Assembly: GCF_030362855.1 (NCBI RefSeq)
Contig: NZ_JAUCBP010000013.1
Span: 1-64,000, forward strand
DNA from: Neoalteromonas arenosi
GTDB lineage: Bacteria > Pseudomonadota > Gammaproteobacteria > Enterobacterales > Alteromonadaceae
Direction: 5' to 3'
Length of the DNA stretch: 64,000 nucleotides
This document shows, in pieces, positions 4,601-59,761 of this stretch. Position numbers and translations under genes: made by a program. Numbering within the stretch: the first letter of the stretch is position 1; each line of letters begins with the position of its first letter. The notes below the pieces were generated by a model. The model worked only from the letters and a program-made list of their open reading frames with translations, had not been told where the DNA came from and made no database searches.

Positions 4601-5573
4601 AGAGTTTGTTGAGCGCAACAGAGGTGATATTAATGTCAAAAGTCGCAAGCGACACGGCACAGTCTTTACAATTTCATTGCCATTGAGCAAGGAGAGCCAG
4701 CAAAGTACCGCAAGAATTAATCTCGATGAGCAATCGTTCAACGCCGCTGCAGTAGACAAGTTACAGGCGAACACCGGTCGGAAAACCGTGCTAGTGGTTG
4801 AAGATGTCGAAGAAATGCGACGCTTCATTGTGTCTCTGTTAGCGAATGAATATCACTGCTTGCGCGCGGCCAATGGCAAAGAAGGTTTAGAAATGGCGTT
4901 AAAGTTACAACCAGATGCCATTGTTGCTGATGTTAACCTCCCTTTTAAAAACGGGATTGAATTGACCCAAGTTGTTCGCGCTAATCAGCAAACTGCACAT
5001 ATTCCAATTATTTTAATTTCCGCAATGGCAGACGAAGCCTCTAAGATCGCGGGTCTAAAGGCTCAAGCCAACGACTACATAGCAAAGCCGTTTAATCCTG
5101 AAGAACTTAAGTTTAAGCTCGCGCGATACACAGCAGTGGAGCCTACTACTGACAGTACCGTCGAAGGTAGTGAAGTACACGCAAAAATAGATTTGATTGA
5201 TATAGAGTTACCAGAGTTTAGCAGCGAAAAAGATCATCGGTTTATGATGAAGTTGTTACTCACTACGCAAAAACACTATCAAAGTGAAACATATAATCGC
5301 GAAATTGCCGCAACAGCGCTAAACTGCACGGACCGTCAATTAAACCGCAAATTGAATCAGCTAATAGGTAAGAGTTTTACGGCTTTTTTACGTCTATATC
5401 GACTTAAGAAGGCAAAGCGTTTGTTGCTCGAATCTAGTAATATTACCCATGTAGCATTTGATGTTGGATTTACTTCAGCTTCTTATTTTGGCTCCTGCTT
5501 CAAAGAAGAGTTTGGCATGACACCCAGTGAATATATAGAAAGCGCTAAACAACCTTTTTCAGAGCCAGTTTAA
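1623..5573 (+). CDS. Hybrid two-component sensor kinase/AraC regulator with beta-propeller sensor
   Basis: A 1316-residue one-protein signalling system. Order: signal peptide (1-20); periplasmic two-component-regulator propeller repeats (about 25-640); Y_Y_Y domain (about 680-740); one membrane helix (about 745-767); HisKA with H814 in NISHEIRTP; HATPase with N, G1 (DSGEGI) and G2 (GSGVGLAI) boxes; receiver domain with phospho-acceptor D1103 (VADVNLP) and conserved K in YIAKPF; and a C-terminal AraC HTH (about 1210-1310, DVGFTSASYF). Such hybrids sense an external ligand and directly regulate nearby promoters; many control glycan use, but no glycan genes are here. The divergent double-glycine peptide gene is the obvious candidate target. 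ATG at 1623 has AAAAGGA 15 bases upstream, rather far; no other in-frame start is evident. Confidence 0.93.
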   Translation: MGHLRSILLVIYMLGSSVTGKPLEGELPRISTADDQSLGIIHSLFQGRDKLWIGSENGLYYVAGDQIERSQILPKEISVPITAIAETTDSLVVATLGQGLHLYNYETQRIQRFDTSQGLTSDFIYDFAKLPSGEWVAATFDGVDLIDFNLLPAGKVTPILASKNVFNVVTQQNQILFTSDEGLFLIDVTGRQIASTLLPIPPNKASLIINDVDLITPSEIAVATDQGLYLYELEQQVFKLRAHLYAAENVTTAVSFDSESILVSGTRTRFLSISTLQPMTNHPQQDYFDLHRIAHIEDIARTPSNHIVFSTPLVGMSWLNNLGHAVDRMEVVAADGLRQRVDKMIDLNTSVLAISNHTLYLKKGYGTEPFIPVFEAFEPIEHVVAIGEQMILASTGNILHVLDVVAEQVVTTLSIQADVQQLTVINRKPVVLDASNGLYVITDDFRVQPLPTHFNADYITATANRLFAVDYYNGVFSSREGQSWQAHDHSLLSEDIPIDCVAQSQTDAYYFCTSGNGIMVTDPETARLVPSKLNDLLNANYIRSMAADASGHLWIASNIGLYRAHPSELWIQRVDARFGILDRDFEYDGLSMDMIGSTLNLVGDSYAYQLYLPSLNALLDQQLNQSARVQFDNITSYIGSGQDQRTEISSTIEGGVRSYFVPNSAYLSEFSFSATDIIDHQYLSFEYRLLGLTETWKTQPHGFSKAIFSALPYGEYRFQVRAVNNLSNLEQPITEVAINVLPPWYMSYQAFIAYFLSALALYFSFRYWQQYRAEVRRQQLEAFAAEKTNALQREYEAIKQRLDKTKGLFTNISHEIRTPLTLIIAWLNEVANSDASERDGRKIQAALNNTQRLRLLVDQLLELENLEYKEAAEREHIDVVASLRQLVDSLQPLFKHKRIEPVLTGREKIYVDVIPDSFDKIFSNIIVNAIKYSATDSEVRMRVRVKGHCVEITIEDSGEGIAEDDVATIFKRFSRLKEHQNTQGSGVGLAIVKEFVERNRGDINVKSRKRHGTVFTISLPLSKESQQSTARINLDEQSFNAAAVDKLQANTGRKTVLVVEDVEEMRRFIVSLLANEYHCLRAANGKEGLEMALKLQPDAIVADVNLPFKNGIELTQVVRANQQTAHIPIILISAMADEASKIAGLKAQANDYIAKPFNPEELKFKLARYTAVEPTTDSTVEGSEVHAKIDLIDIELPEFSSEKDHRFMMKLLLTTQKHYQSETYNREIAATALNCTDRQLNRKLNQLIGKSFTAFLRLYRLKKAKRLLLESSNITHVAFDVGFTSASYFGSCFKEEFGMTPSEYIESAKQPFSEPV

Positions 5574-32265: not shown

Positions 32266-33468
32266 ATGCAAAAATCACTGTTTCGCATGTCTCTATTTGC
32301 TTTTAGTTTCTGTCTAGGAGCGGCTTTTCTTGTGCATGCGGAACAACAAGAACCCTTCATCATTGGTCTCGACGCTGACATGTCTGCAGTAGCGGCAGAA
32401 GGTGGAACCGCAATATTCCGCGGTGCCTCATTAGCCATTGAAGAGATTAACCAAGCCGGTGGCCTATTGGGGCGGCAGATATCATTGGTCGTGAAAGATC
32501 ATCGTGGCAATCCGGCTAGAGGCTTGCGCAACTTAGCGCAGTTAAGCGAAGAACCAAACTTACTAGCGGTGATTGGCGGTGTACATACGCCGGTGGTATT
32601 GCAAGAGTTAGATTTGATTCATCAAAAACCCCTGATTTTTTTAGTTCCTTGGGCAGCAGGAACTGCAATTATCGATAACGGTTTTGAACCCAACTACGTA
32701 TTTAGAGTTTCTGTTCGAGACTCAGAAGCCGCATCAGTGATTTTAAGCAATATCAAACGACGGGGCGTTAAGCGTGTTGCATTAATACTGGAGCGCACTG
32801 GCTGGGGGCGTTCGAATGAAAAGTCTATGGAGCAGGTCGCCGCAAAACTCGGCATTGATATAGTTGCCACAGAATGGATAAATTGGCGCCAGCAAGCGTT
32901 CGATGAGGCGGTAACGAGAATCGCTGACTCTGATGCAGAGGCAGTGGTAATGGTTGCCAATGCGCCAGAGGGTGCGGTTGCTGCAACCAGCCTATTTAAC
33001 AACAGAAAAACTCAGCAGTTGCCGATCGTATCTCATTGGGGGATAGCGGGTGGAAAATTTGCCGAGTTACTGGGCTTAGATATTCTCACGCAACTGGACT
33101 TAAGCGTTCTGCAAACCTTCCATTTCCAGCAAGCCAACAATCCTCAGCTAGCGGAAAGTCTGCTAGCGCGTTATAGGAGTAGTTTTGATGCTGAAGCATC
33201 GCCCAAAAGTATCAAAGGGCAAGTCGGCTTAGCCCATGCTTATGATCTAATTCACATGCTCGCGCAGGCTGTGGAAACTGCTCAAAGTTCAGAGCCTAAA
33301 GCGGTGAGGGATGCTTTGCAGAGTCTTCAAGAACATCAAGGGTTGATTAAAACTTATGTTCAACCTTTTGTGGAAAATCAAGACGCGCTGTGGGCTTCGG
33401 ACTATATTCTAACGACGTATGATGTACAAGGCGATCTCATACCAAGACCAAGGAACGAAGCTGAATGA
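32266..33468 (+). CDS. Periplasmic branched-chain-amino-acid-type (LIV) binding protein
   Basis: A 400-residue type I periplasmic binding protein with a signal peptide (about 1-25, ending HA-EQ). Typical blocks: IGLDADMSAVAAEGG, GASLAIEEINQAGGLLGRQI, AVIGGVHTPVVLQELDLI. In ABC systems such proteins deliver amino acids or amides, but here no permease or ATPase follows. Instead its stop overlaps (ATGA) the start of a sensor-kinase gene, so it is most likely a ligand-reporting partner of that kinase. The ATG at 32266 follows GAGAGATT; an earlier in-frame start at 32227 would add an untypical 13-residue leader. Confidence 0.85.
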   Translation: MQKSLFRMSLFAFSFCLGAAFLVHAEQQEPFIIGLDADMSAVAAEGGTAIFRGASLAIEEINQAGGLLGRQISLVVKDHRGNPARGLRNLAQLSEEPNLLAVIGGVHTPVVLQELDLIHQKPLIFLVPWAAGTAIIDNGFEPNYVFRVSVRDSEAASVILSNIKRRGVKRVALILERTGWGRSNEKSMEQVAAKLGIDIVATEWINWRQQAFDEAVTRIADSDAEAVVMVANAPEGAVAATSLFNNRKTQQLPIVSHWGIAGGKFAELLGLDILTQLDLSVLQTFHFQQANNPQLAESLLARYRSSFDAEASPKSIKGQVGLAHAYDLIHMLAQAVETAQSSEPKAVRDALQSLQEHQGLIKTYVQPFVENQDALWASDYILTTYDVQGDLIPRPRNEAE

Positions 33469-33752
33469 GTCAGTATTTTAGCCTCAAACAGTATTTGTTT
33501 CGGCGCGCATTACCAAGTCAGTTAGTCATCTTAATCTTACTCTCAGTATTATTGTCGGCGTTGTTTTATATTTATTCCAAGCCACAGATTGATCAAAGGC
33601 ATCAAAACAACGCAGAACACTTGGTCGCTTCTGTGGAAAGTGGTGTTGGAGATATTATTGAGCAATTGAATAATCTTGCGGCCAATGACTTTGTAACCAA
33701 TAGTTTGATAGATAAACGCCAACAGCAATATTATTTACCACTATTCTTTTAA
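33465..33752 (+). pseudogene. Amino-terminal fragment of LOV hybrid histidine kinase, cut by an in-frame stop
   Basis: This 95-residue stretch holds the first membrane helix (about 20-38) and the start of the periplasmic sensor of the kinase encoded further on. It ends at TAA (33750-33752), after which the same reading frame continues without a break, 29 codons later meeting the ATG at 33840. If the stop were a sense codon (for example CAA, one C-to-T change away) the gene would read 959 residues. So this is either a recent nonsense mutation, a sequencing error or a readthrough site. The start overlaps the binding-protein stop by four bases. Confidence 0.75.
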
Positions 33753-33839
33753 TCGTTCCGTATCAGTGGCGTCGAGAAAGCATCGATTGGTCTATTCAGT
33801 TTTGATGCACAAGTAATTTCCGGTAGAAATCTCAAGCCG

Positions 33840-36344
33840 ATGAACGCCATCTTAGACACTCACCAATGGCAGCAAATAGTACTCGAAGAGGGACAGGTCT
33901 ATACTGAAATTCGAGACGATGGCGTGACCATCGCTGTGCCGGTTTTTTTCTCTCCGGGATTTGTAGAAGGCGCTATTGTGTTCTATTCGCAGTCGTTGAG
34001 CGCTATCATTCGATTATACGAAACGAACTCGCATTTGTTGCTACTTGATAGTAAGCGCAGAGTCATATTTGCTTCTGACGACTCCCCGTTTACGCCTGGT
34101 CAACGAATAGTCGAGCATGAATTCGATGACTGGGTTCACAAGACCATAGTAAAGTCGGGTCTAGCCTATGTCAGTTTTGAGTCCTACCGAGATGCGTATT
34201 CAACCGTTTTGTATCTGCTGCCATTTATTTTCTTAACCCTATTTTTAACTCTTTTTGCTTTATATCTAAGCACTAACTTAATCGCTGATCGCGGTTCAGA
34301 AACCTTATCGCAATTAGCGAATCAATTGTGGTCAGGTTTCACCGGGCCGACAAACGACAACACTGCTCACTCCATCAAAGAGCTTAGTGATATCAGGCAG
34401 GCGTTTAATAATCTTCGGGAACAAGTCGACACTTTATCGTTGTCAAATGCTCGAGTGAATAATGTCATCAATGCCCTGTATGAATACTTGATCGTGCTTG
34501 ATGCGAATTACGCGCCTCTGATTGTGAATCAAGCAAGCCGAGATTTTATGCACAGAGCGAATTTTAGCGAACATCAACTTGAGCAATTGGTGAGCGATTT
34601 ACAGAAGTTTGCCAAAAGCGGCTCGAATCTAGAGCGATTTGAAGCGACATACATTGATTCAGAAACCGAAGATACGCTTTTTGTTTCTTGGTATACAACA
34701 CCATTGACAGATGAGGCGGGTGAACAGGCTGGCTTGGTTATCGTCGGCGAAGACCAAACGCGACGTAAGTATTTAGAGTCGCAATTACGCTTGAAAACAC
34801 AAGCTGTCGATCGCGCTAGCACATCAATCCTTATCTCCGATATCACTCAACCGGGTGAGCCGATTATCTACACCAATAGTGCATGCGAGCAATTAACGGG
34901 ATACAAGGTAGAGGACTTCTTAGGTAATAATTGCCGATTTCTTCAAGGTCCTGACACAGACAAACGGGATACGCGTCGGATCCGTGACGCAATAAACAAG
35001 CGCGAACCAGTTGATGTCACCTTAGTTAATTACAAAAAGGATGGTTCACCGTTCTACAATCACTTAACCCTTACACCTATTATCAGTGATAGCGGTGAAG
35101 TCACTCATTATTTGGGAATACAACAGGACGTCACTGCCGCGAAGGAAGCCGCAGAGTACTTAGAACAGGCTCGTGTTAAAGCTGAAGAATCGTCGCGAAT
35201 GAAAACCGATTTTTTAGCCAACATGAGTCATGAAATTAGAACACCCATAAATGGGATTTATGGATTTTTGCAGTTGCTTAATGAAACAGGTTTGAATAAG
35301 AAGCAGCGTCAGTTTGTTGAAATGGCGTCAACAAGTACACAAAACCTATTGCACATCATTAATGATATTTTGGACTTGTCGAAAATTGAAGCGGGCAAAT
35401 TGAGTATAGAGAAAATTTATTTTGACCCGCTGGCATTTTTTGAAGAAATTATAAGCACTTACCAGACGCATGCGCAAAGCAAGGACCTCGATTTTGAAGC
35501 CAAGATAGATATACCTGACGAATTATTACTGAATAGCGATCCGACACGTATTAGACAAGTAATTGTTAATTTGCTCAGTAACGCGATCAAATTCACCGAG
35601 CATGGCAAAGTCAGGCTCTCTGCTGCTATCAAGTCAGTGGATGATGTTTACATATTGACCGTTGCCGTTAAAGACACCGGCGTGGGGATTTCCCCTGATA
35701 AGCAGGCCGCAATATTCGAACAGTTCTCGCAAGAAGATGTTTCGACTACTCGTGAGTTCGGAGGGACAGGTCTTGGACTTTCTATTTCTCAACAACTGTG
35801 TCAATTGTTAGGGGGGGAGATAAAGGTTGTCAGCCAAAAAGGTCAAGGCAGTCAATTTCGCGCAACCTTCGCGATTACAACAGCACTGCGCAGCGAACAA
35901 CCTATACAAAAAGTTGAGCAACACACGTCCGTTGACCTTTCTGAACATCGAGAATGCAAGGTGTTACTCGTAGAAGACAATCATATCAATCAAGTTGTTG
36001 CACAAAATCAACTTGACGAGCATCGGGTCGAGATTGCCGATAATGGTCTAAAGGCAATTGAGCACTTGCGCGACTCAACTGCGCATTACGATGTAATTTT
36101 AATGGATTGCCAAATGCCTGTTATGGACGGTTTTGAGGCGTCTGAACGAATTAGGGCCGGAGATGCAGGTAATGCAAATCGCAAAATACCGATCATTGCA
36201 TTAACCGCAAACGCAATGAAAGGTGATAGGGAACGCTGCTTGGCTGCCGGCATGAACGATTACATTAGCAAACCATTCGACGCCACCGTGCTCAATCAAA
36301 AAGTACGCTTTTGGGCCGGAAAAAACGAAGTGGTGGCAGAGTAA
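33840..36344 (+). CDS. LOV-domain hybrid sensor histidine kinase (truncated at N-terminus)
   Basis: 834 residues from this ATG: remainder of a periplasmic sensor (1-115), a membrane helix (about 120-147), a first PAS (about 205-310), a LOV-type PAS (about 320-430), HisKA (H464 in NMSHEIRTP), HATPase (DTGVGI, GTGLGLSI) and a receiver with D756 (LMDCQMP). The LOV call rests on NNCRFLQG with C365, the flavin-adduct cysteine, plus LVNYKKDGSPFYNHL and GIQQDVT with the flavin-contacting Gln. LOV kinases are blue-light receptors. The missing N-terminus is encoded in the same frame upstream of a TAA (33750). No ribosome site is seen before the ATG. With only one membrane helix left, the periplasmic half may end up in the cytoplasm. 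Confidence 0.85.
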   Translation: MNAILDTHQWQQIVLEEGQVYTEIRDDGVTIAVPVFFSPGFVEGAIVFYSQSLSAIIRLYETNSHLLLLDSKRRVIFASDDSPFTPGQRIVEHEFDDWVHKTIVKSGLAYVSFESYRDAYSTVLYLLPFIFLTLFLTLFALYLSTNLIADRGSETLSQLANQLWSGFTGPTNDNTAHSIKELSDIRQAFNNLREQVDTLSLSNARVNNVINALYEYLIVLDANYAPLIVNQASRDFMHRANFSEHQLEQLVSDLQKFAKSGSNLERFEATYIDSETEDTLFVSWYTTPLTDEAGEQAGLVIVGEDQTRRKYLESQLRLKTQAVDRASTSILISDITQPGEPIIYTNSACEQLTGYKVEDFLGNNCRFLQGPDTDKRDTRRIRDAINKREPVDVTLVNYKKDGSPFYNHLTLTPIISDSGEVTHYLGIQQDVTAAKEAAEYLEQARVKAEESSRMKTDFLANMSHEIRTPINGIYGFLQLLNETGLNKKQRQFVEMASTSTQNLLHIINDILDLSKIEAGKLSIEKIYFDPLAFFEEIISTYQTHAQSKDLDFEAKIDIPDELLLNSDPTRIRQVIVNLLSNAIKFTEHGKVRLSAAIKSVDDVYILTVAVKDTGVGISPDKQAAIFEQFSQEDVSTTREFGGTGLGLSISQQLCQLLGGEIKVVSQKGQGSQFRATFAITTALRSEQPIQKVEQHTSVDLSEHRECKVLLVEDNHINQVVAQNQLDEHRVEIADNGLKAIEHLRDSTAHYDVILMDCQMPVMDGFEASERIRAGDAGNANRKIPIIALTANAMKGDRERCLAAGMNDYISKPFDATVLNQKVRFWAGKNEVVAE

Positions 36345-36364: not shown

Positions 36365-38026
36365 CTAACCTATCGTGCCGTTAACAATCGGCTCGAACGC
36401 GGTTAACGTATCCATTAATGACGCATTACCCAATCCGTGCGCTGGGAATAGTTCTTCAAATCGGCTTTGCTCACCGTGTAACGCTAGATAATTTAAGATC
36501 ACCGTTTCTACCAACAAATTGACGTTGTTTGCCGCTGGTGTAGCGGCTGTTTCTACCGAGCCGTCGCGACGCATAAAGCCAAGCTGCTGATGACGCGCCT
36601 GTTGCTCTGGTGTTGCGCCAATCAATTGCGGCGTTCCGCCTGGGTTATATACCAAGAAGAATGAGCCCGCGGTTGAGGAATTATCGCCCGTCCAAACACC
36701 TTTGCCGCGACCATTCACTGAATCGTCAATCATGCCGTTACTAAATACCGAGCCATCACTGTAGACATACATCATTAATGGCATACCAACACGCGCCGCG
36801 TACTCCAAACACGCGCCCATGCAGCGTCCGGCGCGTAAGTCACGGACTTCACCTGTTGCGCGGTTGCCAACGTGATAATCATAACCACCCATGGTAATGG
36901 TGCCGGCACCTGCGAAGCCGTTAATCACAAGCTTCATGACTGACGCGGTTTTCTGGAATTCACGATCGCTGTCAAACTCTTCTTGCGTGAAAATGCCGTT
37001 CGGACCGACAATATCAGGATCGAGAGTGGGGTCTAATGTGCTTGGGTCGCCGAAGCGGTCAGTGATATCGGCACTTTTCACATAACCACAGCGAACGAGA
37101 TCTTTTAGTACTTCATCAGAGGTGATTTGCGTATCTACTTGGCCGAGTTTCATATCGCTGATGCGCTGGATAGATTCCATTACAGCTACCGAATCTTGTT
37201 GGCTTAACAAGCCAACTAAATCACCGGTATCCACCAAGCCAGTTACATCCGAAGGTCGGTCGACTTTCGTTGGGCGCACCGCTGGGTCAATCATATTGAA
37301 TGGTGCCATTGAATTTGCGCCTGAGTCACTGGTGCGCGATCCAATTAAGCTCAACAACGAGCCATCAGCACCGCCTTTAAAGATCCCATACATCGGGTTG
37401 TGCGGATTGTTGCCGGTATCGTTTTCCGATCGAGCGGGGATGACAGCACCATTGATGTTGGCGCGATTAGTCACATTAACCTTATCTAAAATGCCGCGTA
37501 AGAATGCACTATCAGAATGGAAGGCAAGGCCCAACTCATTGTTAATGAAATCACTTAAGCCAGTATCTGGGTTGGCAATACTCGGTAGCATATCGCCGGG
37601 CAAGCCTTGACGGTTGTAGCCCTGAGTACTCAAGAAATCGAGCTGGCCACCTTGGCCACCAATTAACACGTTTGAACCGGCAATATTGGCACCACCGGCT
37701 AGGTCAAATACGATAAATGGAATTTTGCCGGCCCCTTGAGTGGCAATACCGCATTGCGATTTCAATGCTTCTAGATCGGACGATAAGTCTGCATGCGCCT
37801 GGCGCGGTGCGGCAAACATACTGAGCAGCGAGGTACCTACCACGGTGCCGACACCAGCGGTAAAGCCTTGCGAAATAAAGTCGCGACGCGTCATTGGCTT
37901 GGCGTGATCGTTAAGTTTAAGCGGCGCATCGCAATCGAGCGGCGCATCTAAGGGGTCAACTTTGCTCGTGGTGCGGCGCGCGAAGCTGTAAGTAGTTGTC
38001 GATTGTTTTGGCTTAAATGGATTCAT
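36365..38026 (-). CDS. Tat-exported DUF1501-like protein
   Basis: A 553-residue protein whose N-terminus (about 45-80) has a twin-arginine signal, TRRDFISQGF, followed by a hydrophobic stretch ending at AHA-DL. The start of the mature region, FIVFDLAGGANIAGSN, resembles DUF1501 proteins (VxxFLxGGxxxxN). No other motif is clear. The 45-residue segment before the RR motif is unusually long. It follows the LamG/cytochrome lipoprotein gene after 20 bases and is the last gene of that operon; Tat export implies folding or cofactor loading in the cytoplasm. Confidence 0.75.
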   Translation of the reverse strand: MNPFKPKQSTTTYSFARRTTSKVDPLDAPLDCDAPLKLNDHAKPMTRRDFISQGFTAGVGTVVGTSLLSMFAAPRQAHADLSSDLEALKSQCGIATQGAGKIPFIVFDLAGGANIAGSNVLIGGQGGQLDFLSTQGYNRQGLPGDMLPSIANPDTGLSDFINNELGLAFHSDSAFLRGILDKVNVTNRANINGAVIPARSENDTGNNPHNPMYGIFKGGADGSLLSLIGSRTSDSGANSMAPFNMIDPAVRPTKVDRPSDVTGLVDTGDLVGLLSQQDSVAVMESIQRISDMKLGQVDTQITSDEVLKDLVRCGYVKSADITDRFGDPSTLDPTLDPDIVGPNGIFTQEEFDSDREFQKTASVMKLVINGFAGAGTITMGGYDYHVGNRATGEVRDLRAGRCMGACLEYAARVGMPLMMYVYSDGSVFSNGMIDDSVNGRGKGVWTGDNSSTAGSFFLVYNPGGTPQLIGATPEQQARHQQLGFMRRDGSVETAATPAANNVNLLVETVILNYLALHGEQSRFEELFPAHGLGNASLMDTLTAFEPIVNGTIG

Positions 38027-38046
38027 CTTGTTCTACTCCTTAACGC

Positions 38047-40494
38047 CTATTGGATTGCCACTACAGCACTGCCGAGCACCGCTGCACAGCTGGCTTTTGC
38101 GACATTGCGCGTGGTGCTCGCTGAACAACTATTCGTCTGTGTACATTGGGTCAATCGGTCAACCAAATTGTTTAATTCAGTCGTGACATTAGTGGTACTT
38201 GGTTGCGAGCCAATATTATTGCCTAGCATGCGAGTGGTAAGCGGTGAAAACAGCGCATTGCGCCCCGCGCTATCAAACGCTGATTGTGGTGCCAGAGCAA
38301 AATCGAAATCTGGGAAATATGCACTGCGCAGTGAATTATCTTCAACTAGCGCATCACAGTATTTGATTGCTAACTGGGTAATTGCCATTTGATTTGATGC
38401 CAGGAAGCTACTCATATCGGTGACGCTAGGCAACTGTTGACGTAGTTGATCAAAGGTTGCTTTTACGCCTGATTGGTTCGCCGCAACTGTAGTCAAGGCT
38501 GCCATGCTGGCATTGATTTCAGCAAAGTTGCGGATACCAATCTCTGGCTGCGGCTCCAAATCGATCGGCGCAGCCGGCGTAGGTGGCTCTGCTGGAACGC
38601 GAACATACTGTTCATCACCGAGTCGGTCGAAGGTCAGGAAGAACTCATCTTGCTCTGGACCTTTTTCAAGACCAATAATCGTACCTTGCGATGATAATTG
38701 CTGGCCCAAATCAGGCACGTATTGAGCGCCAACAATCTCGGTAACCAGTGGTGCGAACACTTGTCCGCCTTGCGCTTCTCGGCCATTGATACCAATACGC
38801 ATGCCTTCTATAGCAATGCCGTCGACATTGACTCCTTCGGCAAGGCTAACAAAGAATGGCTCACTGAATAGGTAGCTGTAGCTGTCAAATTGACTAACTT
38901 CAAACACGACATAGGCTTCAGGGACGTTAATAATGTCAGATATCGCGAACAGCAAGAAGAACTTCTGGCCCACACCAACATCGAAGTTTTGCATGATTTG
39001 CTCGGGTGACAAAATTCGATTGTGTACCGCGACCATACGAATCGTTCCGGCCCACGGCACATCACCTGACGCTTCATTGCCTAACACAAATGCAAAGCTT
39101 GGATCCCACTCATTGAGGTTGCCCGGAGCAACATCATCAAAGTCATCAGTGAACACACCATTTACGTAGATTTGACGTCCATTTACCGCGTCGTAGTTAA
39201 ACACGACATGTTGCAATGCGGCTTGTAAATCTTCGTCGGCATCGGCTGTGGAAAGGGCAGGCATACCATTGCCATCAGTATTATTGGTGCGCAATAGCGC
39301 ATCATAGTTGTACAAGGTTTGCCCTAAGGTGAAGTTACGACGATCGCGCCCCCCCGAATAGCTTACTATACGTGCAGGCCCTTCTTGGGTGACATTTGCT
39401 GGCGCGACCCAAGCTTCAATACTGAACTCACCAGTGGCAGTAATCAGATCGTGCATTTTTCGACTAGCACTCGTCGAGCCTTGGGCTTTGCCGTTGCGCA
39501 ATTGCACACCCCAGCCACCAACCCAGTCAAACTGACCGCTCAGCGTGAGATCCAGCGCAGGTTCAATACCACTGGTATCAAATGCAATGTTGCCAAAACC
39601 GGTTTTAAACTCCCATTTACCGATCAGGTTGGTCTCAAAGCGACCGCCGCCACTGGCCAAAGTACCTTCGAATAAAGTTGTGGCCGCCGAGTTGATTAAA
39701 TCACCATCGAGCTGAGTCGCTTCAATCGTGTCAGAGAATGCTTGTATAGCATTGGTCAATTGCAACGCATCGGCTTGGCAATCTGACCAGCAATTGTGAA
39801 ACTCATCGCGGATCCGAGCGACCAAACGAGAGTCACTTGGTGTGTCTAAATTAATTCGGCCTTTCGATGCTTGGTAGGCTTCATCCACATCGTCCGACGC
39901 AAAATACGGTGCAATCGGAATTGCCGCTGAGCTGGTATGGCAATCTGCACAGTACTGGTTCACGATAGGGTGTACGGTGTTGGCAAACTCTGTTGCATCA
40001 GCGGGAAAGTTTTTGTTCGCGCCAGGCTCGCGTAGGGCTGGTGCTTGGAGCTGAATGGTCGTCGCTTCCTGTTCTTGATTGGCCCAGTTACCAATCCACG
40101 TCGTCATAATGTCGGTACACGCGGAAGTACTGCTTAGCCAACAGTTGTGACCACCAGCGACTTTGCTGATTAGCTCTGAATCACTGGGTTGTGAGAAGTC
40201 GATATACGGGTTGATATCTGCATAAGCTAAGTTGATATCATCGTTGCGGGCAAAGGCTGGAGATTGCTGTCCTTGGACGTGACACGCGCCGCAGCGATCA
40301 GCGGTAGCTAAATTGTCCCATACCGATAATTTGAAGTTTTGTACATCGGCTGTTGCAGGTGCAGGGCCGTTGTAATTGATTACGGGTTGCTCAAGCGGCG
40401 GTGGTAAAGGCGTTTGCTCAACTACAGTGTCGCTGCCGCCACCACACGCACTCAACAGTACTACCGAAAATGAAGTTAGGAGGAATTTTTGCAT
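38047..40494 (-). CDS. LamG-domain di-heme cytochrome-like lipoprotein
   Basis: An 815-residue lipoprotein (lipobox LLSAC, Cys17). Two heme c motifs follow: CGACH (from C68) and CADCH (from C182). Residues about 320-510 look like a LamG/concanavalin-A-type fold (ATGEFSIEAWVAPANVT, HVVFNYDAVNGRQIYVNG, WAGTIRMVAVHNRILSPEQI). The C-terminal third has no recognised domain. Two Cys-rich patches (NCWLSSTSAC and NCWSDCQ) may form disulfides. Start chosen for GGGAG 7 bases upstream. It lies two bases after the stop of the upstream heme protein gene, so this is an operon of exported heme proteins. The role may be electron transfer or surface binding. Confidence 0.8.
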   Translation of the reverse strand: MQKFLLTSFSVVLLSACGGGSDTVVEQTPLPPPLEQPVINYNGPAPATADVQNFKLSVWDNLATADRCGACHVQGQQSPAFARNDDINLAYADINPYIDFSQPSDSELISKVAGGHNCWLSSTSACTDIMTTWIGNWANQEQEATTIQLQAPALREPGANKNFPADATEFANTVHPIVNQYCADCHTSSAAIPIAPYFASDDVDEAYQASKGRINLDTPSDSRLVARIRDEFHNCWSDCQADALQLTNAIQAFSDTIEATQLDGDLINSAATTLFEGTLASGGGRFETNLIGKWEFKTGFGNIAFDTSGIEPALDLTLSGQFDWVGGWGVQLRNGKAQGSTSASRKMHDLITATGEFSIEAWVAPANVTQEGPARIVSYSGGRDRRNFTLGQTLYNYDALLRTNNTDGNGMPALSTADADEDLQAALQHVVFNYDAVNGRQIYVNGVFTDDFDDVAPGNLNEWDPSFAFVLGNEASGDVPWAGTIRMVAVHNRILSPEQIMQNFDVGVGQKFFLLFAISDIINVPEAYVVFEVSQFDSYSYLFSEPFFVSLAEGVNVDGIAIEGMRIGINGREAQGGQVFAPLVTEIVGAQYVPDLGQQLSSQGTIIGLEKGPEQDEFFLTFDRLGDEQYVRVPAEPPTPAAPIDLEPQPEIGIRNFAEINASMAALTTVAANQSGVKATFDQLRQQLPSVTDMSSFLASNQMAITQLAIKYCDALVEDNSLRSAYFPDFDFALAPQSAFDSAGRNALFSPLTTRMLGNNIGSQPSTTNVTTELNNLVDRLTQCTQTNSCSASTTRNVAKASCAAVLGSAVVAIQ

Positions 40495-40496
40495 GA

Positions 40497-41729
40497 TTAT
40501 TCTCCCATACAATATTCGGCTGTTTGCGCGAATACTTGTTTTAAACGATAACCGTCTTGTTGAAAGTCTGCGGTGATTTCATCGATTATTGCGCGATCAT
40601 CGGCATCTTGTGGAGCGCGTAAACAGACATTTTCAAAGACTTTTTTAACTTGACAGGTGGCAAATGTCTGACTTGAGGCTAGCTCTTCTCCCATAGACTT
40701 AGCGCCATAGCCAAAGCCGTCGAGTTGCTCAGACCAACCGAGGAGCTGATTGCTGCCATGTCGCCAATAGTTATCCCATCGGTCGTCTTGGGTGACATAG
40801 CCATATGGGAAATTACCTGAGTTGATCCAATACTTAGCCTGAACGCGCAAACCGGTCTGCGCATCAGTTTCACCCACTCGGTTATACACGATTTGACCGT
40901 TCTCTCCTTCAGGGTCGGCATCAACATTGTATTCGTAGTTATAGTAAGCGAAAGATTGCGCAAGTGGGTCCATACCGGAATGACAACCAACACAACTGTT
41001 GATAAATATTCGTGAATCACCGCCGGGGCTGCGGCTTAAGTCTTGACGAATGCGATCAGGCGGCAAACTGGTATCTTTTAACCCTTCTAAATCAGTACAC
41101 ATATGATTCATTAACGTGAAGCGCAACATGGCGCGATTCGTACCGTCTTTAAAGAAGGATTTGGCTGCTGCGCGGGTGGTCATAACCCCAGCGGTAGCAT
41201 CCGCGGGTAAACCAATGACCTGCGATTGCGAGGTGGCAACTAGCGCCGAGCTTAAATCAACCCCTTGCGCTTCCATCGCTTCATAATGCGCATTGTTGGT
41301 GTTCTGATAAGCGGGCAAACCAAGACCGCTATCGCCCACGTAGAGTATGTCGCCAGATAGTACCAAGCGAAAATCAACATCATCACGTACCATGCCGATC
41401 ACCGTCGCGGTGTAATCATTCAATGGCGCAAACACGTCAAATTCCTCGTTGGTCCAGGGGGTAACAAATTGCTTGAGTGTGACATTGTAAAACGCTGGAT
41501 TCTGCATCGCGATTTCGGCGGCACCTTGAGCATCACCGGCTTCAATCAGGGCGCTCATTTGTTGCAATGTCTGCGCATCACCTGGGACACCAGCGAGCCG
41601 GTCATGCATGCGCTTGCTTTGTTCTAGGGGGCCCGCATAAACTGAAGGACTGCTCAATAGTATTGTGACTGCAGCCATTGCTATTAGCGGTTTACAGCCA
41701 CTGCGATTGTTATTGTGTATTAACCGCAT
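40497..41729 (-). CDS. Exported mono-heme protein
   Basis: A 410-residue protein with a signal peptide (about 1-32, ending VYA-GP) and one heme c motif CVGCH (C246-H250) in a block FINSCVGCHSGMDPLA, reminiscent of planctomycete-type DUF1585/DUF1588 cytochrome-like proteins. The upstream AAAGGAGAG gives a strong ribosome site. First gene of the operon with the LamG/cytochrome lipoprotein and the Tat protein. The substrate or electron partner is not evident. Confidence 0.75.
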   Translation of the reverse strand: MRLIHNNNRSGCKPLIAMAAVTILLSSPSVYAGPLEQSKRMHDRLAGVPGDAQTLQQMSALIEAGDAQGAAEIAMQNPAFYNVTLKQFVTPWTNEEFDVFAPLNDYTATVIGMVRDDVDFRLVLSGDILYVGDSGLGLPAYQNTNNAHYEAMEAQGVDLSSALVATSQSQVIGLPADATAGVMTTRAAAKSFFKDGTNRAMLRFTLMNHMCTDLEGLKDTSLPPDRIRQDLSRSPGGDSRIFINSCVGCHSGMDPLAQSFAYYNYEYNVDADPEGENGQIVYNRVGETDAQTGLRVQAKYWINSGNFPYGYVTQDDRWDNYWRHGSNQLLGWSEQLDGFGYGAKSMGEELASSQTFATCQVKKVFENVCLRAPQDADDRAIIDEITADFQQDGYRLKQVFAQTAEYCMGE

Positions 41730-42228
41730 ATTCTCTCCTTTAATACGTCAATGAAGAGTGTGAAAAGACGTATTCTGCCGAAACTATAGAAAGCGTTTAG
41801 TGATCAATAAATAGTCACTCACGTGTTTGCGTCTAATTTTTCATACCAAAGCATTGTTGCTACTTTGCGAAAACGATATCCATTATGTTGACAACTATCC
41901 GATTAGATTGCAGGTGACCAATTTCGATAAATGACGCTAAAGCAGCGCATTTCATTTTTCGTGCCTACATAGAAAAAAACTAAGAAATCAGACGGTTAGT
42001 AATTGGAAGGAAATAGTTCACCAGACTGACTATTATTATAGATGCCAATTCCGTTCCCAATCAAAGACATTCTGTGTTTTACCACCGTTTAGTAATCAGT
42101 CTTTAAGGTTTTACTAATTCAGTTAAAACCGAGTTTTCGTAAGGAATTGCACGTAAGGTTATAGATAAATGAGAAGTGTGGTTTTAAGTCTACATAGCTA
42201 ATAAACCAGAAGCGATGGGAAAAAATAT

Positions 42229-42450
42229 CTAAATTTTTTCTGTACTGAAATCAGTAATATAAGATACTTGAACGGATACCTTAAACCACTGCTTAAGGTA
42301 TGGTTTTTTATTACTTTGTTCAAAAAATAACATTGCTGCTCGCGCGAGGGTGTGTGATTTTCCGCTACCTGTGGTATTGCCATGTACTTTTATGGCACCT
42401 GACTTACGAGTCAAATACGAGTGATTGTCGATACATTGAGACACTTTCAC
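42229..42450 (-). pseudogene. Possible P-loop ATPase/HsdR-like remnant
   Basis: A 73-codon ORF reads KSGAIKVHGNTTGSGKSHT; GNTTGSGKS fits a Walker A loop, and the context is a little like the helicase part of type I restriction enzymes (WHTxGSGKSLT). No start, ribosome site or further domain is visible and the C-terminal half is AT-rich. It could be a decayed fragment of a mobile gene or chance. Confidence 0.25.
42276..42310 (+). terminator. Terminator-like hairpin in the intergenic region
   Basis: Nine-base stem ATACCTTAA (42276-42284)/TTAAGGTAT (42293-42301), eight-base loop, then GGTTTTTTA. It faces the plus strand with no annotated gene directly upstream, so it may end an unannotated small RNA or act as an attenuator; AT-rich stem. 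Confidence 0.45.
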
Positions 42451-42515
42451 AATTTATTGAGCAGAGTATTCTTGTTCGACACGATTAACATACGCAAGTA
42501 ACAACCGAGGCCTGT

Positions 42516-45224
42516 ATGAACGCACAACTTAACATGCAGATAAACACCGCGAAGATTCGCCTAGGGGTTGTGATCGTGTCTACACTGGCGCTATTTTCCT
42601 GTGGCGAAGACGTTTTACCAAGCGAAGAAAATCAAGCACCTGATCCGGTTGTTGTTGATGTTCCTGTGGCGTTTATTAAACGCGATTTGACCGTGGTAAA
42701 TGAAGACAATATGGCCAGTGTTCGAGACCTTTCGCGACCTGCTCAGTTCGTCCCGGGTAGCGCACTGTACATAAAGTCTCGGGCATCGACGTCCGCGGAA
42801 GAACGCAACCTCACGGACAGTTTATTTATTCCCGCTGATGTTGAAGATCCCACGGCTGTAGAAATAGCTCCCTATGATGTTAAAGACTTAAGCGCTTCTT
42901 ACGATGGAACTCGACTCATCTTCGCTTTGCGTGCACCAGAAACGGAAGAAAACCCGGACCCAACTTGGGATATTTACGAGTACTCTCGTGAGACTGATGA
43001 AATCCGACGTGTAATCAGTTCCGACATCGTTGCTAACGCGGGGGATGATACGGGGCCGGTGTATTTGCCGGACGGTCGCATTTTATTTAGTTCCACCCGC
43101 CAGCGCGCCAATCAAGCAATTCTATTGGATGAAGGTAAGCCACAGTATGCAGGCCTTGAAGAAGGGCTAGATGTGCAAGCTTCGGTGTTGCACGTTATGA
43201 ATAGCGATGGCAGCGAAATTCAGCAAATTTCGTTTAACCAAAGCCACGATCTCGACCCAATCGTTGCGCCGAATGGCAAGGTCGTATTTAGCCGCTGGGA
43301 CCAAGCTGTTGGTGACAAAGGCGTGCATCTATATCAAATGAATTCAGATGGCAGTGATTTAGAAATCCTCTACGGGAGGCACAGTCATAATCAGGGCGGT
43401 CGCGAAGTGCAGTTCACGCAAACGCGGATTACGCCTGATGAACGGATGTTGGTGGCACTTACTGAATTTGAACCCGAGCGCCTCGGAGGCGACTTCACCA
43501 TCGTCGACGCACAAGGTTTCTCTGATTTGGACGTGCCAACAATAGGTAATCCTGGTGGCAGTGGTGCCGCGCAAACGCAAGCGCTGTTTGACAATGTTGA
43601 TGCGAGTGCAGAGTTTTCTTTAGGCGGATTATTCGGGACATTGTATCCATTGTGGGACGGTACGGGGCGATACATTTATACTTGGAGTCAATGCCGCGCA
43701 CTGGAACCGTTACCGGAGGGAAGTGCTGAAGGTACGCCTCAGCGCGTGGTTCCATGTAGTGAAGAAATTATTGCCGACCCCGCTTATTCGCCAGCCCCAC
43801 CGTTATTTGGTTTGTGGTTTTACGATCCTAATGACAATACGCAATTGCCGCTGACCGTACCAGAAGAAAATGTTGCATATATGGAAGTTGTCGCGATGGA
43901 ATCACGCCCCTTTCCCGCTAATCCTGAATTACCAGAGCTAATCCCCGAGCTAGTTGACGAAAACCTAGGCGTTGTCCATATCCGCAGCATTTACGACTTC
44001 GCTGGTAGCGATGCCAGTGCTCAGGGCATAGATGCTATGGCTAATCCTACGCTGGTACCCATCAATGGACGCGCGGAACGCTTTTTGCGAGTCATTAAAA
44101 GTGTTTCCATCCCCAATGAGGATACATTGGAGTTTGATAATAGTGCGTTTGGCCGTAGCCGCGCTAACCTAATGCGCGAGGTGCTCGGGTATACGCCAAT
44201 TCAACCGGATGGCTCAGTCATGGTAACCGTGCCCGCCAATGTACCATTTGCGATCACTATTTTAGATGAGAACGGCCGCCGCATATCACCACAACACAAT
44301 AATTGGTTGCAAGTGATTCCCGGTGAAGTCAAAACCTGTAATGGGTGTCACACGAATGGCAGTACCGCACCTCATGGACGCATGGAGGCCGAAGCTGCCT
44401 CAATTAATTTGGGCGCTCCAACGAATGGCGGAGCATTCCCCGGCGCAAATCCTGCGATGTTTACTGACATCGGCGAGACCATGGCACAAACTTATGCTCG
44501 CGTTTTAGGGCTGCCTCGTCTAACCCCTGATCTGGTCTTTGCCGACGTATGGAGTGATCCAGCAACAACGCCACTGGCACCTGCGATTAATGTGCAATAT
44601 GCCGATATGGGCACACCATTACCTATCTCGCAAGCGTGTGCACAAAACTGGACGTCATTGTGCCGAATTGAAATCAATTATCCTGAGCACATTCAGCCAA
44701 TTTTTGAGCGCGTGCGCCAGACGTTAGATAGCGATGGCATGCTGCTTACTGACAATACCTGTGTAAGTTGCCATACCAATACCGACGCCGAAGGCATGAC
44801 TCAAGTACCCGCGGGACAGCTTGAACTCACTGCGCAGGCGTCGCTTGATGACCCGGATGTGATGACCAGTTACCGTGAATTGTTTTTTGGTGACAATGCC
44901 CAAGAGTTAGTTGAAGGCGTATTGGTTGATATCTTGGAATTAGTGTTCGATGAAAATGGTGATCCGGTATTTTTGCGAGACGAAGACGGGGAGCTGATTT
45001 TAGACCCCAACGGTAACCCCATTCAGTTAACCGAAACCGTACCGGTTCAATCGACTATGCGGGTCCGGGGAGCCGTCGCGAGTGACCGATTCTTTGAAAT
45101 ATTTAACAATCCAGAGTCGAGCCATTACTTATGGTTAGAACCGGTCGAACAAAAATTGATTGCAGAGTGGCTTGATGTGGGCGCGCAATACTACAATAAT
45201 CCGTTTGCCATCCCACAAAATTAA
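42516..45224 (+). CDS. PD40-propeller di-heme lipoprotein (hydrazine synthase alpha-like)
   Basis: A 902-residue lipoprotein (lipobox LFSC, Cys29). Residues about 110-560 carry TolB/PD40-like propeller repeats (MNSDGSEIQQIS, QMNSDGSDLEIL, SHDLDPIVAPNGKVVFSR). Two heme c motifs follow: CNGCH from C608 and CVSCH from C749. This order, propeller then c-type hemes, is that of HzsA-related proteins; anammox hydrazine synthesis is not implied, as relatives exist widely in non-anammox bacteria with unknown role. GAGG lies 6 bases before ATG. Leads the long plus-strand cluster that ends in an ExbBD motor. Confidence 0.85.
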   Translation: MNAQLNMQINTAKIRLGVVIVSTLALFSCGEDVLPSEENQAPDPVVVDVPVAFIKRDLTVVNEDNMASVRDLSRPAQFVPGSALYIKSRASTSAEERNLTDSLFIPADVEDPTAVEIAPYDVKDLSASYDGTRLIFALRAPETEENPDPTWDIYEYSRETDEIRRVISSDIVANAGDDTGPVYLPDGRILFSSTRQRANQAILLDEGKPQYAGLEEGLDVQASVLHVMNSDGSEIQQISFNQSHDLDPIVAPNGKVVFSRWDQAVGDKGVHLYQMNSDGSDLEILYGRHSHNQGGREVQFTQTRITPDERMLVALTEFEPERLGGDFTIVDAQGFSDLDVPTIGNPGGSGAAQTQALFDNVDASAEFSLGGLFGTLYPLWDGTGRYIYTWSQCRALEPLPEGSAEGTPQRVVPCSEEIIADPAYSPAPPLFGLWFYDPNDNTQLPLTVPEENVAYMEVVAMESRPFPANPELPELIPELVDENLGVVHIRSIYDFAGSDASAQGIDAMANPTLVPINGRAERFLRVIKSVSIPNEDTLEFDNSAFGRSRANLMREVLGYTPIQPDGSVMVTVPANVPFAITILDENGRRISPQHNNWLQVIPGEVKTCNGCHTNGSTAPHGRMEAEAASINLGAPTNGGAFPGANPAMFTDIGETMAQTYARVLGLPRLTPDLVFADVWSDPATTPLAPAINVQYADMGTPLPISQACAQNWTSLCRIEINYPEHIQPIFERVRQTLDSDGMLLTDNTCVSCHTNTDAEGMTQVPAGQLELTAQASLDDPDVMTSYRELFFGDNAQELVEGVLVDILELVFDENGDPVFLRDEDGELILDPNGNPIQLTETVPVQSTMRVRGAVASDRFFEIFNNPESSHYLWLEPVEQKLIAEWLDVGAQYYNNPFAIPQN

Positions 45225-58294: not shown

Positions 58295-59251
58295 TCAATG
58301 TTGGGCTAAACAACTCGCATTAATCCATCGGTTTATTTCATTTGCGTATTTGAGTCGCCACATTTGTGCCGCCTGATCTTCGTCCAATCCGTCAATAAAT
58401 ACCATCGCTGGGGTGTCGATTAGCATTTCTTCGGTGAAGCTTACTTGCTTCAAGAATTGATAAATGCACGGTTGCTCATCTACCAATTTAGGCCAAATTA
58501 TCTTTTGTATCCAAACACCTAGTCGGTTTGCACAATCGTGCGTCATTTCTTTATTCAGTCCCCAATTTGGGTTGGTTTCGCATTCAGGCTGAAATGCGGG
58601 GAATTGAACGAAGCTTCCGGGTATATGCTTGTCTGTCCAATTGGGCGTCCAATTGTGTAAAACGATAGGTATTTTATGCTCGGAAAATAGCCTTAACGTT
58701 GACCAAAGCTCATTTGAGTCAGAAACGCGTTCTATTTTGAAATTTAATCCCAGAGAGCGAATGATTTCGGCTTCATGATTATCCCACCCGGCACTAAAAA
58801 ACGTTCCGATTGGTGCCGGACCATCGGAGTCCACGTCTTTAACGAATATGCTCGAACACAAATTAAATGCCTGCCAATCGGGTAGGCCCGGGCATAGCTC
58901 CTCGACGTAACTTGGATACCACCACTCTTCTCTGGCTTGGACTTGGTGCCGACCAATAATCAATATTTGTTCCGCTTGTACTAATCGGTCAAAAGTCTCC
59001 GATCGGTCTGGCTCCCATGCTTCAATCTGTACGTGCGCCAGCCCTGTTCTCAACGCTCCAAACTGCTCGGCATATCCCAATTCAGCATATTCGACTTCAA
59101 AACCATATTCTTCTAACACTTGAGCAACGACTTTTGTATGGACGCGCTGTGAGGCCCAGTCATTCAACACAAAAACGATAGGTTCAGCCTTTACAAGAGA
59201 CATGCTTGTTGAGAGATAGACGCTAACAATAAACAGTACAAACTTCGTCAT
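58295..59251 (-). CDS. Orphan glycine-betaine/choline-type substrate-binding protein
   Basis: A 318-residue protein of the OpuAC-type ABC binding family (glycine betaine, choline, proline betaine), with a signal peptide (about 1-22, ending VKA-EP). The mature start PIVFVLNDWASQRVHTKVVAQVLEEYGFEVEY and WEPDRSETFD, plus numerous Trp (NWTPNWTDK) that could form the aromatic cage, support it. The frame stays open 68 codons upstream, but only this ATG opens a signal peptide. No ABC permease or ATPase adjoins, so it must feed a transporter encoded elsewhere or act as a sensor. Confidence 0.82.
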   Translation of the reverse strand: MTKFVLFIVSVYLSTSMSLVKAEPIVFVLNDWASQRVHTKVVAQVLEEYGFEVEYAELGYAEQFGALRTGLAHVQIEAWEPDRSETFDRLVQAEQILIIGRHQVQAREEWWYPSYVEELCPGLPDWQAFNLCSSIFVKDVDSDGPAPIGTFFSAGWDNHEAEIIRSLGLNFKIERVSDSNELWSTLRLFSEHKIPIVLHNWTPNWTDKHIPGSFVQFPAFQPECETNPNWGLNKEMTHDCANRLGVWIQKIIWPKLVDEQPCIYQFLKQVSFTEEMLIDTPAMVFIDGLDEDQAAQMWRLKYANEINRWINASCLAQH

Positions 59252-59338
59252 ATTTTGATTCGCAATTGAACTACAAAAACTAGGTGTTTTTCTAAAAGAT
59301 AGTATATTCTCAAGATAAAACCTCCTCAGCCATTGCTT

Positions 59339-59761
59339 ATGTATACAGCCAAAACTAAGCACTATCAGATTTGGTGCGAAAACAATGTCTTGATCGCAGT
59401 GATTCGCGGCCAATGGGATGCCATTGAAGCTGAAGCCTACGTTCAAGACTTTCAAGCAGTCGCTCGAAAACTAATTAACGAGCCGTGGGCTCATATCACC
59501 TACTTAGATGATTGGCGGCTTTCTACGCCAGACGCGTCAGGACCTATACAAGAACTAGAACGCTGGTGCATGAACAACAATCTGCACTGCGACGCTGTTG
59601 TGTACGCTGAGCATGCAATAAAAGATTATGTTTTAGAGAATGCCTTACAAAACACTAGTCGTAATCCCGATGTTTACCGCCACTTCACATCTTCAAAAGA
59701 AGCCATCGACTGGATTACCCGGAAGGGATTTTTGCCTACCAGTGAAAGAATTGTCGGATAA
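59339..59761 (+). CDS. SpoIIAA/STAS-like small protein
   Basis: A 140-residue cytoplasmic protein resembling the SpoIIAA-like (STAS-fold) group: alternating strands and helices IWCENNVLIAVIRGQWD, AITYLDDWRLSTPD-like HITYLDDWRLSTPDASGPIQ and VVYAEHAIKDYVL. No enzyme motif is seen. ATG at 59339 is chosen; the frame also starts from a TTG two codons earlier. Function unknown; moderately confident of the fold only. Confidence 0.65.
   Translation: MYTAKTKHYQIWCENNVLIAVIRGQWDAIEAEAYVQDFQAVARKLINEPWAHITYLDDWRLSTPDASGPIQELERWCMNNNLHCDAVVYAEHAIKDYVLENALQNTSRNPDVYRHFTSSKEAIDWITRKGFLPTSERIVG

Follow-up and report, generated by a model that had tools for sequence, protein, structure and literature searches.

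A periplasmic binding protein beside an interrupted LOV hybrid kinase in Neoalteromonas arenosi: a predicted ligand- and light-responsive pair conserved among close relatives

Can a ligand outside the cell and blue light be read by one and the same hybrid kinase, and does Neoalteromonas arenosi still encode such a kinase? The question is raised by two adjoining genes at positions 32266 to 36344 of the first 64,000 nucleotides of contig NZ_JAUCBP010000013.1 (assembly GCF_030362855.1), a stretch that we refer to as the window; all features of the pair lie on the plus strand. A first-pass annotation had described a periplasmic binding protein followed by an intact light-sensing kinase. We found that the kinase is not intact: the frame opening at ATG 33465 runs for 95 codons and then meets an in-frame TAA at 33750–33752 (codon 96, within the periplasmic domain), so that the DNA as written encodes a 95-residue fragment (33465–33752) and then 863 open codons to 36344. 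The continuous frame expected of a hybrid kinase is thus broken at this TAA. Our preferred reading, to which we give a probability of about 0.7, is that the pair is a LuxP/LuxQ-like two-gene ligand sensor with an added blue-light input, whose kinase is interrupted here by a recent nonsense codon or by a base error.

The first gene (32266–33468) encodes a 400-residue protein with a hydrophobic, signal-like N-terminal stretch. It matched Peripla_BP_6 in a Pfam-type family search (E 9.4e-43), and its nearest solved relatives are leucine/isoleucine/valine-binding and ATP-binding cassette (ABC) substrate-binding proteins, which places it in the LivJ-like family. Its stop codon, TGA, shares bases with the kinase ATG at 33465, an overlap that had been noted previously, and the sequence AAGGA sits upstream of that ATG. 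When the kinase frame is read through the TAA, it comprises in order a first transmembrane segment (residues 20–38; 33522–33578), a periplasmic sensor region (33576–34214), a second transmembrane segment (residues 248–266; 34206–34262), a cytoplasmic PAS region (34437–34799; PAS_4, E 1.9e-5, above the gathering score), a LOV domain (residues 441–566; 34785–35162), HisKA with the phospho-acceptor H589 (35199–35396), HATPase_c (35538–35873) and a receiver domain with the phospho-acceptor D881 (35961–36305). The transmembrane segments were assigned by hydropathy, which also flagged a weaker hydrophobic stretch at residues 154–172 that we assign to the sensor, and the last three domains by family search. 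The two hydrophobic segments and the PAS and LOV matches bear out the earlier description of the domain content. Within the catalytic part and the receiver, H589, N702, N706, D737, D838, D881 and K936 are all intact.

The sensor region appears weakly dCache-like. A dCache_1 match was obtained in one of four sequences tested, that of the ortholog G026 (E 1.4e-4, below the gathering score), and the best match of a sensor profile in the PDB was KinD (E 0.0076, a weak match), the sensor of which is a double Cache domain. A single-sequence fold of the region was also tried and was not used, its mean predicted local distance difference test score being 34. For the LOV domain, the best of the solved LOV domains matched was 9vf7 (E 2.1e-32), with phototropin-2 at E 3.4e-30; the domain carries the motif GNNCRFLQG. 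All seven flavin-site residues inspected (N489, C490, R491, Q494, N522, N532 and Q553), to which we assign presumed roles in flavin contact or adduct formation, are present in the window frame. The cysteine codon lies at 34932–34934 and is residue 490 counted from ATG 33465, as in the first-pass annotation, although that numbering passed through the TAA without mention of it. By homology, adduct cysteine and flavin contacts, the LOV domain is a predicted photoreceptor.

We then considered the nature of the stop. The TAA is the sole internal stop among 959 codons. In an alignment of the 35-member ortholog set described below, the 34 readable sequences have arginine (19), glutamine (11), asparagine (3) or glycine (1) at this column; a 36th row, the second half of a split gene in genome G238, has a gap. 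The aligned codon is CAG (Gln) in the congener G002, the kinase of which is whole, CAG in G021, which belongs to another genus, and CGT in G026. Changes after the stop numbered 92 in the window copy vs 75 in G002 with G021 as outgroup (p 0.19) and 65 vs 58 with G026 as outgroup (p 0.53); the corresponding relative-rate counts for the binding protein were 40 vs 40 and 39 vs 34. Because the rest of the frame is open, the inspected residues are intact and there is no significant overall excess of changes, we conclude that the stop is either a recent nonsense mutation or an assembly base error. A long-standing pseudogene is ruled out on the same grounds. A second intact copy elsewhere in the genome is likewise ruled out, as the next best match scored 241.6 bits and covered only residues 414–818 of the 834-residue downstream part. 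A 27-base pattern beside the stop had no match in viral contigs.

That the TAA is an assembly error, the living strain having a whole and working kinase, is in our view a substantial possibility, short of an even chance. Besides the isolated position of the stop and the lack of a significant excess of later changes, the TAA differs by a single base from CAA, a codon for glutamine. Against an error of this kind stand the quality of the assembly (15 contigs, 100% completeness, 0.44% contamination) and the open reading frame list, in which no other gene looked split when inspected by eye.

If the stop is real, the downstream part might still be made, either by a restart at ATG 33840, the first after the stop (open remainder 33840–36344, 834 residues), or by readthrough, which would leave a light input without a ligand input. 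The 863 open codons with their intact catalytic residues would fit such expression, as would a second top-tier gene, that of G238, which is likewise interrupted, by a TAA at codon 48 and a TGA at codon 433, both in frame, and shows no frame change; that genome, however, is only 59% complete. No Shine–Dalgarno-like sequence was seen by eye at the usual distance before ATG 33840, and hydropathy suggests that the restarted protein would have a single membrane helix, some 122 residues from its start, with no first helix to orient it. Readthrough is opposed by the fact that TAA is an ordinary stop here, ending 23 of the 41 counted window genes, a figure which also rules out a reassigned TAA; moreover, TAA followed by T, as here, is a strong terminator. 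We therefore regard restart or readthrough as quite unlikely. Translation restarted at 33840 would yield a protein with only a portion of the sensor and no first membrane helix, so that the system in this genome is probably non-functional if the stop is real. The kinase of this genome should not be annotated as intact, and the proposal that light and nutrient sensing meet in one kinase, fair for intact relatives, is left unsupported by the stop in this genome.

It was of interest how the pair fares in those relatives. A profile of the binding protein was run over 395 genomes of Alteromonadaceae, and with an E value cut-off of 1e-40 it matched at 92 places in 87 genomes. We examined 87 of these places (86 plus the window), leaving out G153, G412, G230:C2, G158:C23 and G376:C91, and set apart as a top tier the 35 binding proteins with E values of 2.0e-140 or better, the window included. 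At 35 of 35 top-tier places the binding-protein gene is followed directly by one for a kinase that comprises sensor, PAS, LOV-type, kinase and receiver parts; the kinase gene starts between −31 and +17 bp from the end of the binding-protein gene (the original start being used for G238). The search for binding-protein/LOV-kinase neighbours in other genomes that had been proposed earlier did find them, with the same order and parts throughout. The kinase is a single frame in 33 of the 35, the window and G238 being the exceptions, and nine checked kinase and receiver residues are identical in all 35 (G238 taken from its second piece). Judged by gene order and sequence, the pairing of binding protein with kinase is more than chance. 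Among the 80 loci listed in a scan of named genomes, none matched the binding-protein profile or had a kinase carrying the strict LOV motif. At four top-tier loci (L136, L140, L144 and L099) a further gene of about 254–257 residues follows the kinase, about 2.9 kb past the binding protein; in G026 the start of the gene after the kinase resembles another periplasmic binding protein by eye.

Within the window genus the kinase is held by two of four genomes. Orthologs of the window-locus flanks are present without the pair in G001 (both flanks) and G003 (one flank; the second flank gene was not found in that genome), and in G002 the pair is on a different contig from the orthologs of these flanks. 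The pair is about as similar to that of the congener (57% and 54% identity) as to that of another genus (56% and 53%), so that it may have been gained by transfer, or old copies may have been lost.

The relatives also allowed us to ask which of the two inputs is retained. That the adduct cysteine might be replaced in all orthologues, which would have told against the light-sensing proposal, is not what we found: 26 of the 35 top-tier kinases keep it, yet it is gone from nine. The flavin contacts follow the cysteine. Among 47 LOV-type kinases adjoining binding proteins, the 38 domains with the cysteine have N489 in 38, Q494 in 37, N522 in 38, N532 in 37 and Q553 in 33, whereas the nine without it have N522 in none, Q494, Q553 and N489 in one each and N532 in two. 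On a tree of these 47 kinases (midpoint root for drawing only; G366 left out) the cysteine label requires two changes, which the starred branches force, and since rows bearing the cysteine stand on both sides, two losses of LOV chemistry are the simplest reading. Because nine of 35 relatives lack the cysteine and most flavin contacts, light sensing does not belong to the conserved core, which on this pattern would be the path from ligand to kinase, with light as a droppable input. Overall we think it somewhat probable that these are conserved receptors of this family of marine bacteria in which a single hybrid kinase takes in both an external ligand and blue light, and that evolution has removed the light input from them at least twice.

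A rival reading is that the LOV-type domain is no photoreceptor but a redox or structural PAS domain in which the cysteine is a remnant. The nine close relatives which lack the cysteine and most contacts, while keeping the kinase and receiver residues, would fit this, and LOV proteins without the cysteine can still signal through flavin reduction (PMC4682037). A remnant cysteine is harder to reconcile with contacts that are kept jointly in 38 domains and lost jointly in nine others, as would be seen were selection to act on flavin binding as a whole, and we consider a non-photoreceptor role unlikely.

The two-input receptor that we favour would work as follows. The periplasmic protein would close on a small ligand, probably amino-acid-like, as its kinship with leucine/isoleucine/valine-binding proteins suggests. 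By analogy, the liganded protein would contact the weakly Cache-like periplasmic domain of the membrane hybrid kinase, while the PAS domain and the flavin-bearing LOV domain, lying between membrane and kinase core, would add a second, blue-light input, with the LOV domain just before HisKA shifting the kinase in blue light. Phosphate would then be passed from H589 to D881 of the receiver and on to a further partner.

Several points weigh against this reading. The steps of binding, light response and phosphorylation rest on sequence and analogy, and Pfam does not recognise the sensor in the window, G002 or G021. One genome of the species was examined, in which a mutation and a sequencing error are not separable. 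The LOV domain taken alone has 15 changes in the window copy vs 6 in G002 with outgroup G021 (p 0.05) and 10 vs 5 with outgroup G026 (p 0.20), these p values being nominal and uncorrected among seven kinase segments compared; the uneven counts are a hint of relaxation in the window copy. The post-stop sensor gave 29 vs 19 (p 0.15) and 16 vs 10 (p 0.24). Finally, in G161 one of the lower-tier binding proteins is followed by genes for a leucine/isoleucine/valine-type permease and a permease-ATPase protein, and the wider binding-protein family, on this evidence from gene neighbourhoods, includes transport members and is not purely sensory.

This last point bears on whether the binding protein of the pair is an ordinary component of ABC transport that merely adjoins a kinase. 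Its nearest solved relatives are in keeping with such a role, and besides the G161 arrangement the neighbours in G181, G473 and G524 match in length (289 and 827 residues), the comparison being one of length. The two genes flanking the pair in the window, on the other hand, have no Pfam match, so that no transport genes are seen there, and a kinase lies directly next to the binding protein at 47 of the 52 lower-tier places as well as throughout the top tier. We regard a purely transport role as highly improbable for the pair. The five lower-tier places with no kinase next are in G161, G181, G362 (one of two), G251 and G015. At 12 others, all in genus g18, the next gene encodes a cysteine-bearing LOV hybrid kinase about 1100 residues long, with two receiver matches in 11 of the 12 and one in G209. 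Over 7397 bases one of these 12, that of G290, agrees letter for letter with plasmid pNC201 of Pseudoalteromonas sp. NC201, a strain that falls in this genus, and the g18 pair of G366 keeps the motif INCSLLQ in a kinase whose core changes frame. Broken kinases thus stand beside the binding protein also at L141 (G238) and L210 (G366); interruption of the kinase may recur, or draft assemblies may explain the breaks in G238 and G366.

At order and class level, 20 regions were taken in together with G049. Some of these relatives precede kinases without the LOV motif; GGDEF proteins are next in L233 and L242, genes of the G161 lengths in L245 and L246, and neighbours that match no profile used in L244 and L251, while on an Azospirillum plasmid a relative of the binding protein precedes a gene annotated as an ATP-binding protein. 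In L232, L234, L235, L237, L241, L242 and L243 the relative makes up the C-terminal part of a longer protein (about 700 residues), which in its N-terminal half resembles the tripartite ATP-independent periplasmic (TRAP)/DctP type by eye only. In six of these seven the next gene is kinase-like or encodes a GGDEF protein, and L234 ends at a contig end. Whether the seven class-level fusions are tandem two-ligand sensors is a question that their layout raises.

Other genes of the window may be noted briefly. Positions 36365–45224 hold a block of large proteins that includes a Laminin_G_3 protein, a sub-threshold DUF1585 match and a protein with a hydrazine-synthase-alpha-like domain, PD40 repeats and CxxCH motifs (motifs by eye); the protein at 36365–38026 has no Pfam match and is 87–88% identical in two congeners. 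A one-protein hybrid at 1623–5573 combines Reg_prop/Y_Y_Y, HisKA, HATPase and receiver parts with an AraC-type helix–turn–helix, and an OpuAC-type glycine-betaine binding protein is encoded on the minus strand at 58295–59455.

How, then, does the pair compare with known systems? Like LuxP/LuxQ, the Vibrio autoinducer-2 receptor, it pairs a binding protein of the periplasm with a membrane-bound hybrid kinase that carries a receiver and the sensor of which may be of the Cache/PDC type, and the gene order is that of a LuxP/LuxQ-type pair, with the binding protein directly before the kinase. Among NCBIfam models, LuxQ gave the kinase its best E value (4.9e-110, residues 410–824); at 368.8 bits against a cut-off of 1200, identity with LuxQ itself is ruled out. 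Unlike LuxP/LuxQ, the binding protein here is a LivJ-like Peripla_BP_6 protein and the kinase adds PAS and LOV domains. A binding protein also signals to a kinase in TorT/TorS (trimethylamine N-oxide) and AioX/AioS (arsenite), and we know of no LOV domain in either. LuxP presents autoinducer-2 to the tandem PDC domains of LuxQ, and the TorS sensor, probably unlike the one here, is all-helical (PMC8534201); TorT/TorS and AioX/AioS are given as examples of binding proteins signalling to kinases (PMC5908839).

The second comparison is with the LOV histidine kinases. As in YF1/YtvA-type proteins, Brucella LOV-HK and Caulobacter LovK, the LOV domain precedes the kinase core and has the motif GXNCRFLQ. 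Unlike these known kinases, LOV photoreceptor kinases being described in a review as cytosolic, soluble and without transmembrane helices (PMC6798134), the kinase here is membrane-anchored and has an external partner. The first-pass annotation knew of no described example of the pairing; in searches of open-licence papers we recognised no description of a LOV kinase with a binding protein as its partner, so that this view is uncontradicted, although novelty in print is thereby unproved. We conclude that the pair is an elaboration of a known kind of receptor. If the intact relatives work as read, they are two-input receptors, and close pairs that differ in the light domain (G380, for example, keeps it and its tree sister G390 does not) would allow a direct test of how a transmembrane ligand sensor already in place is modulated by a LOV domain, a natural experiment on signal integration in which the path from ligand to kinase is left after light has been lost.

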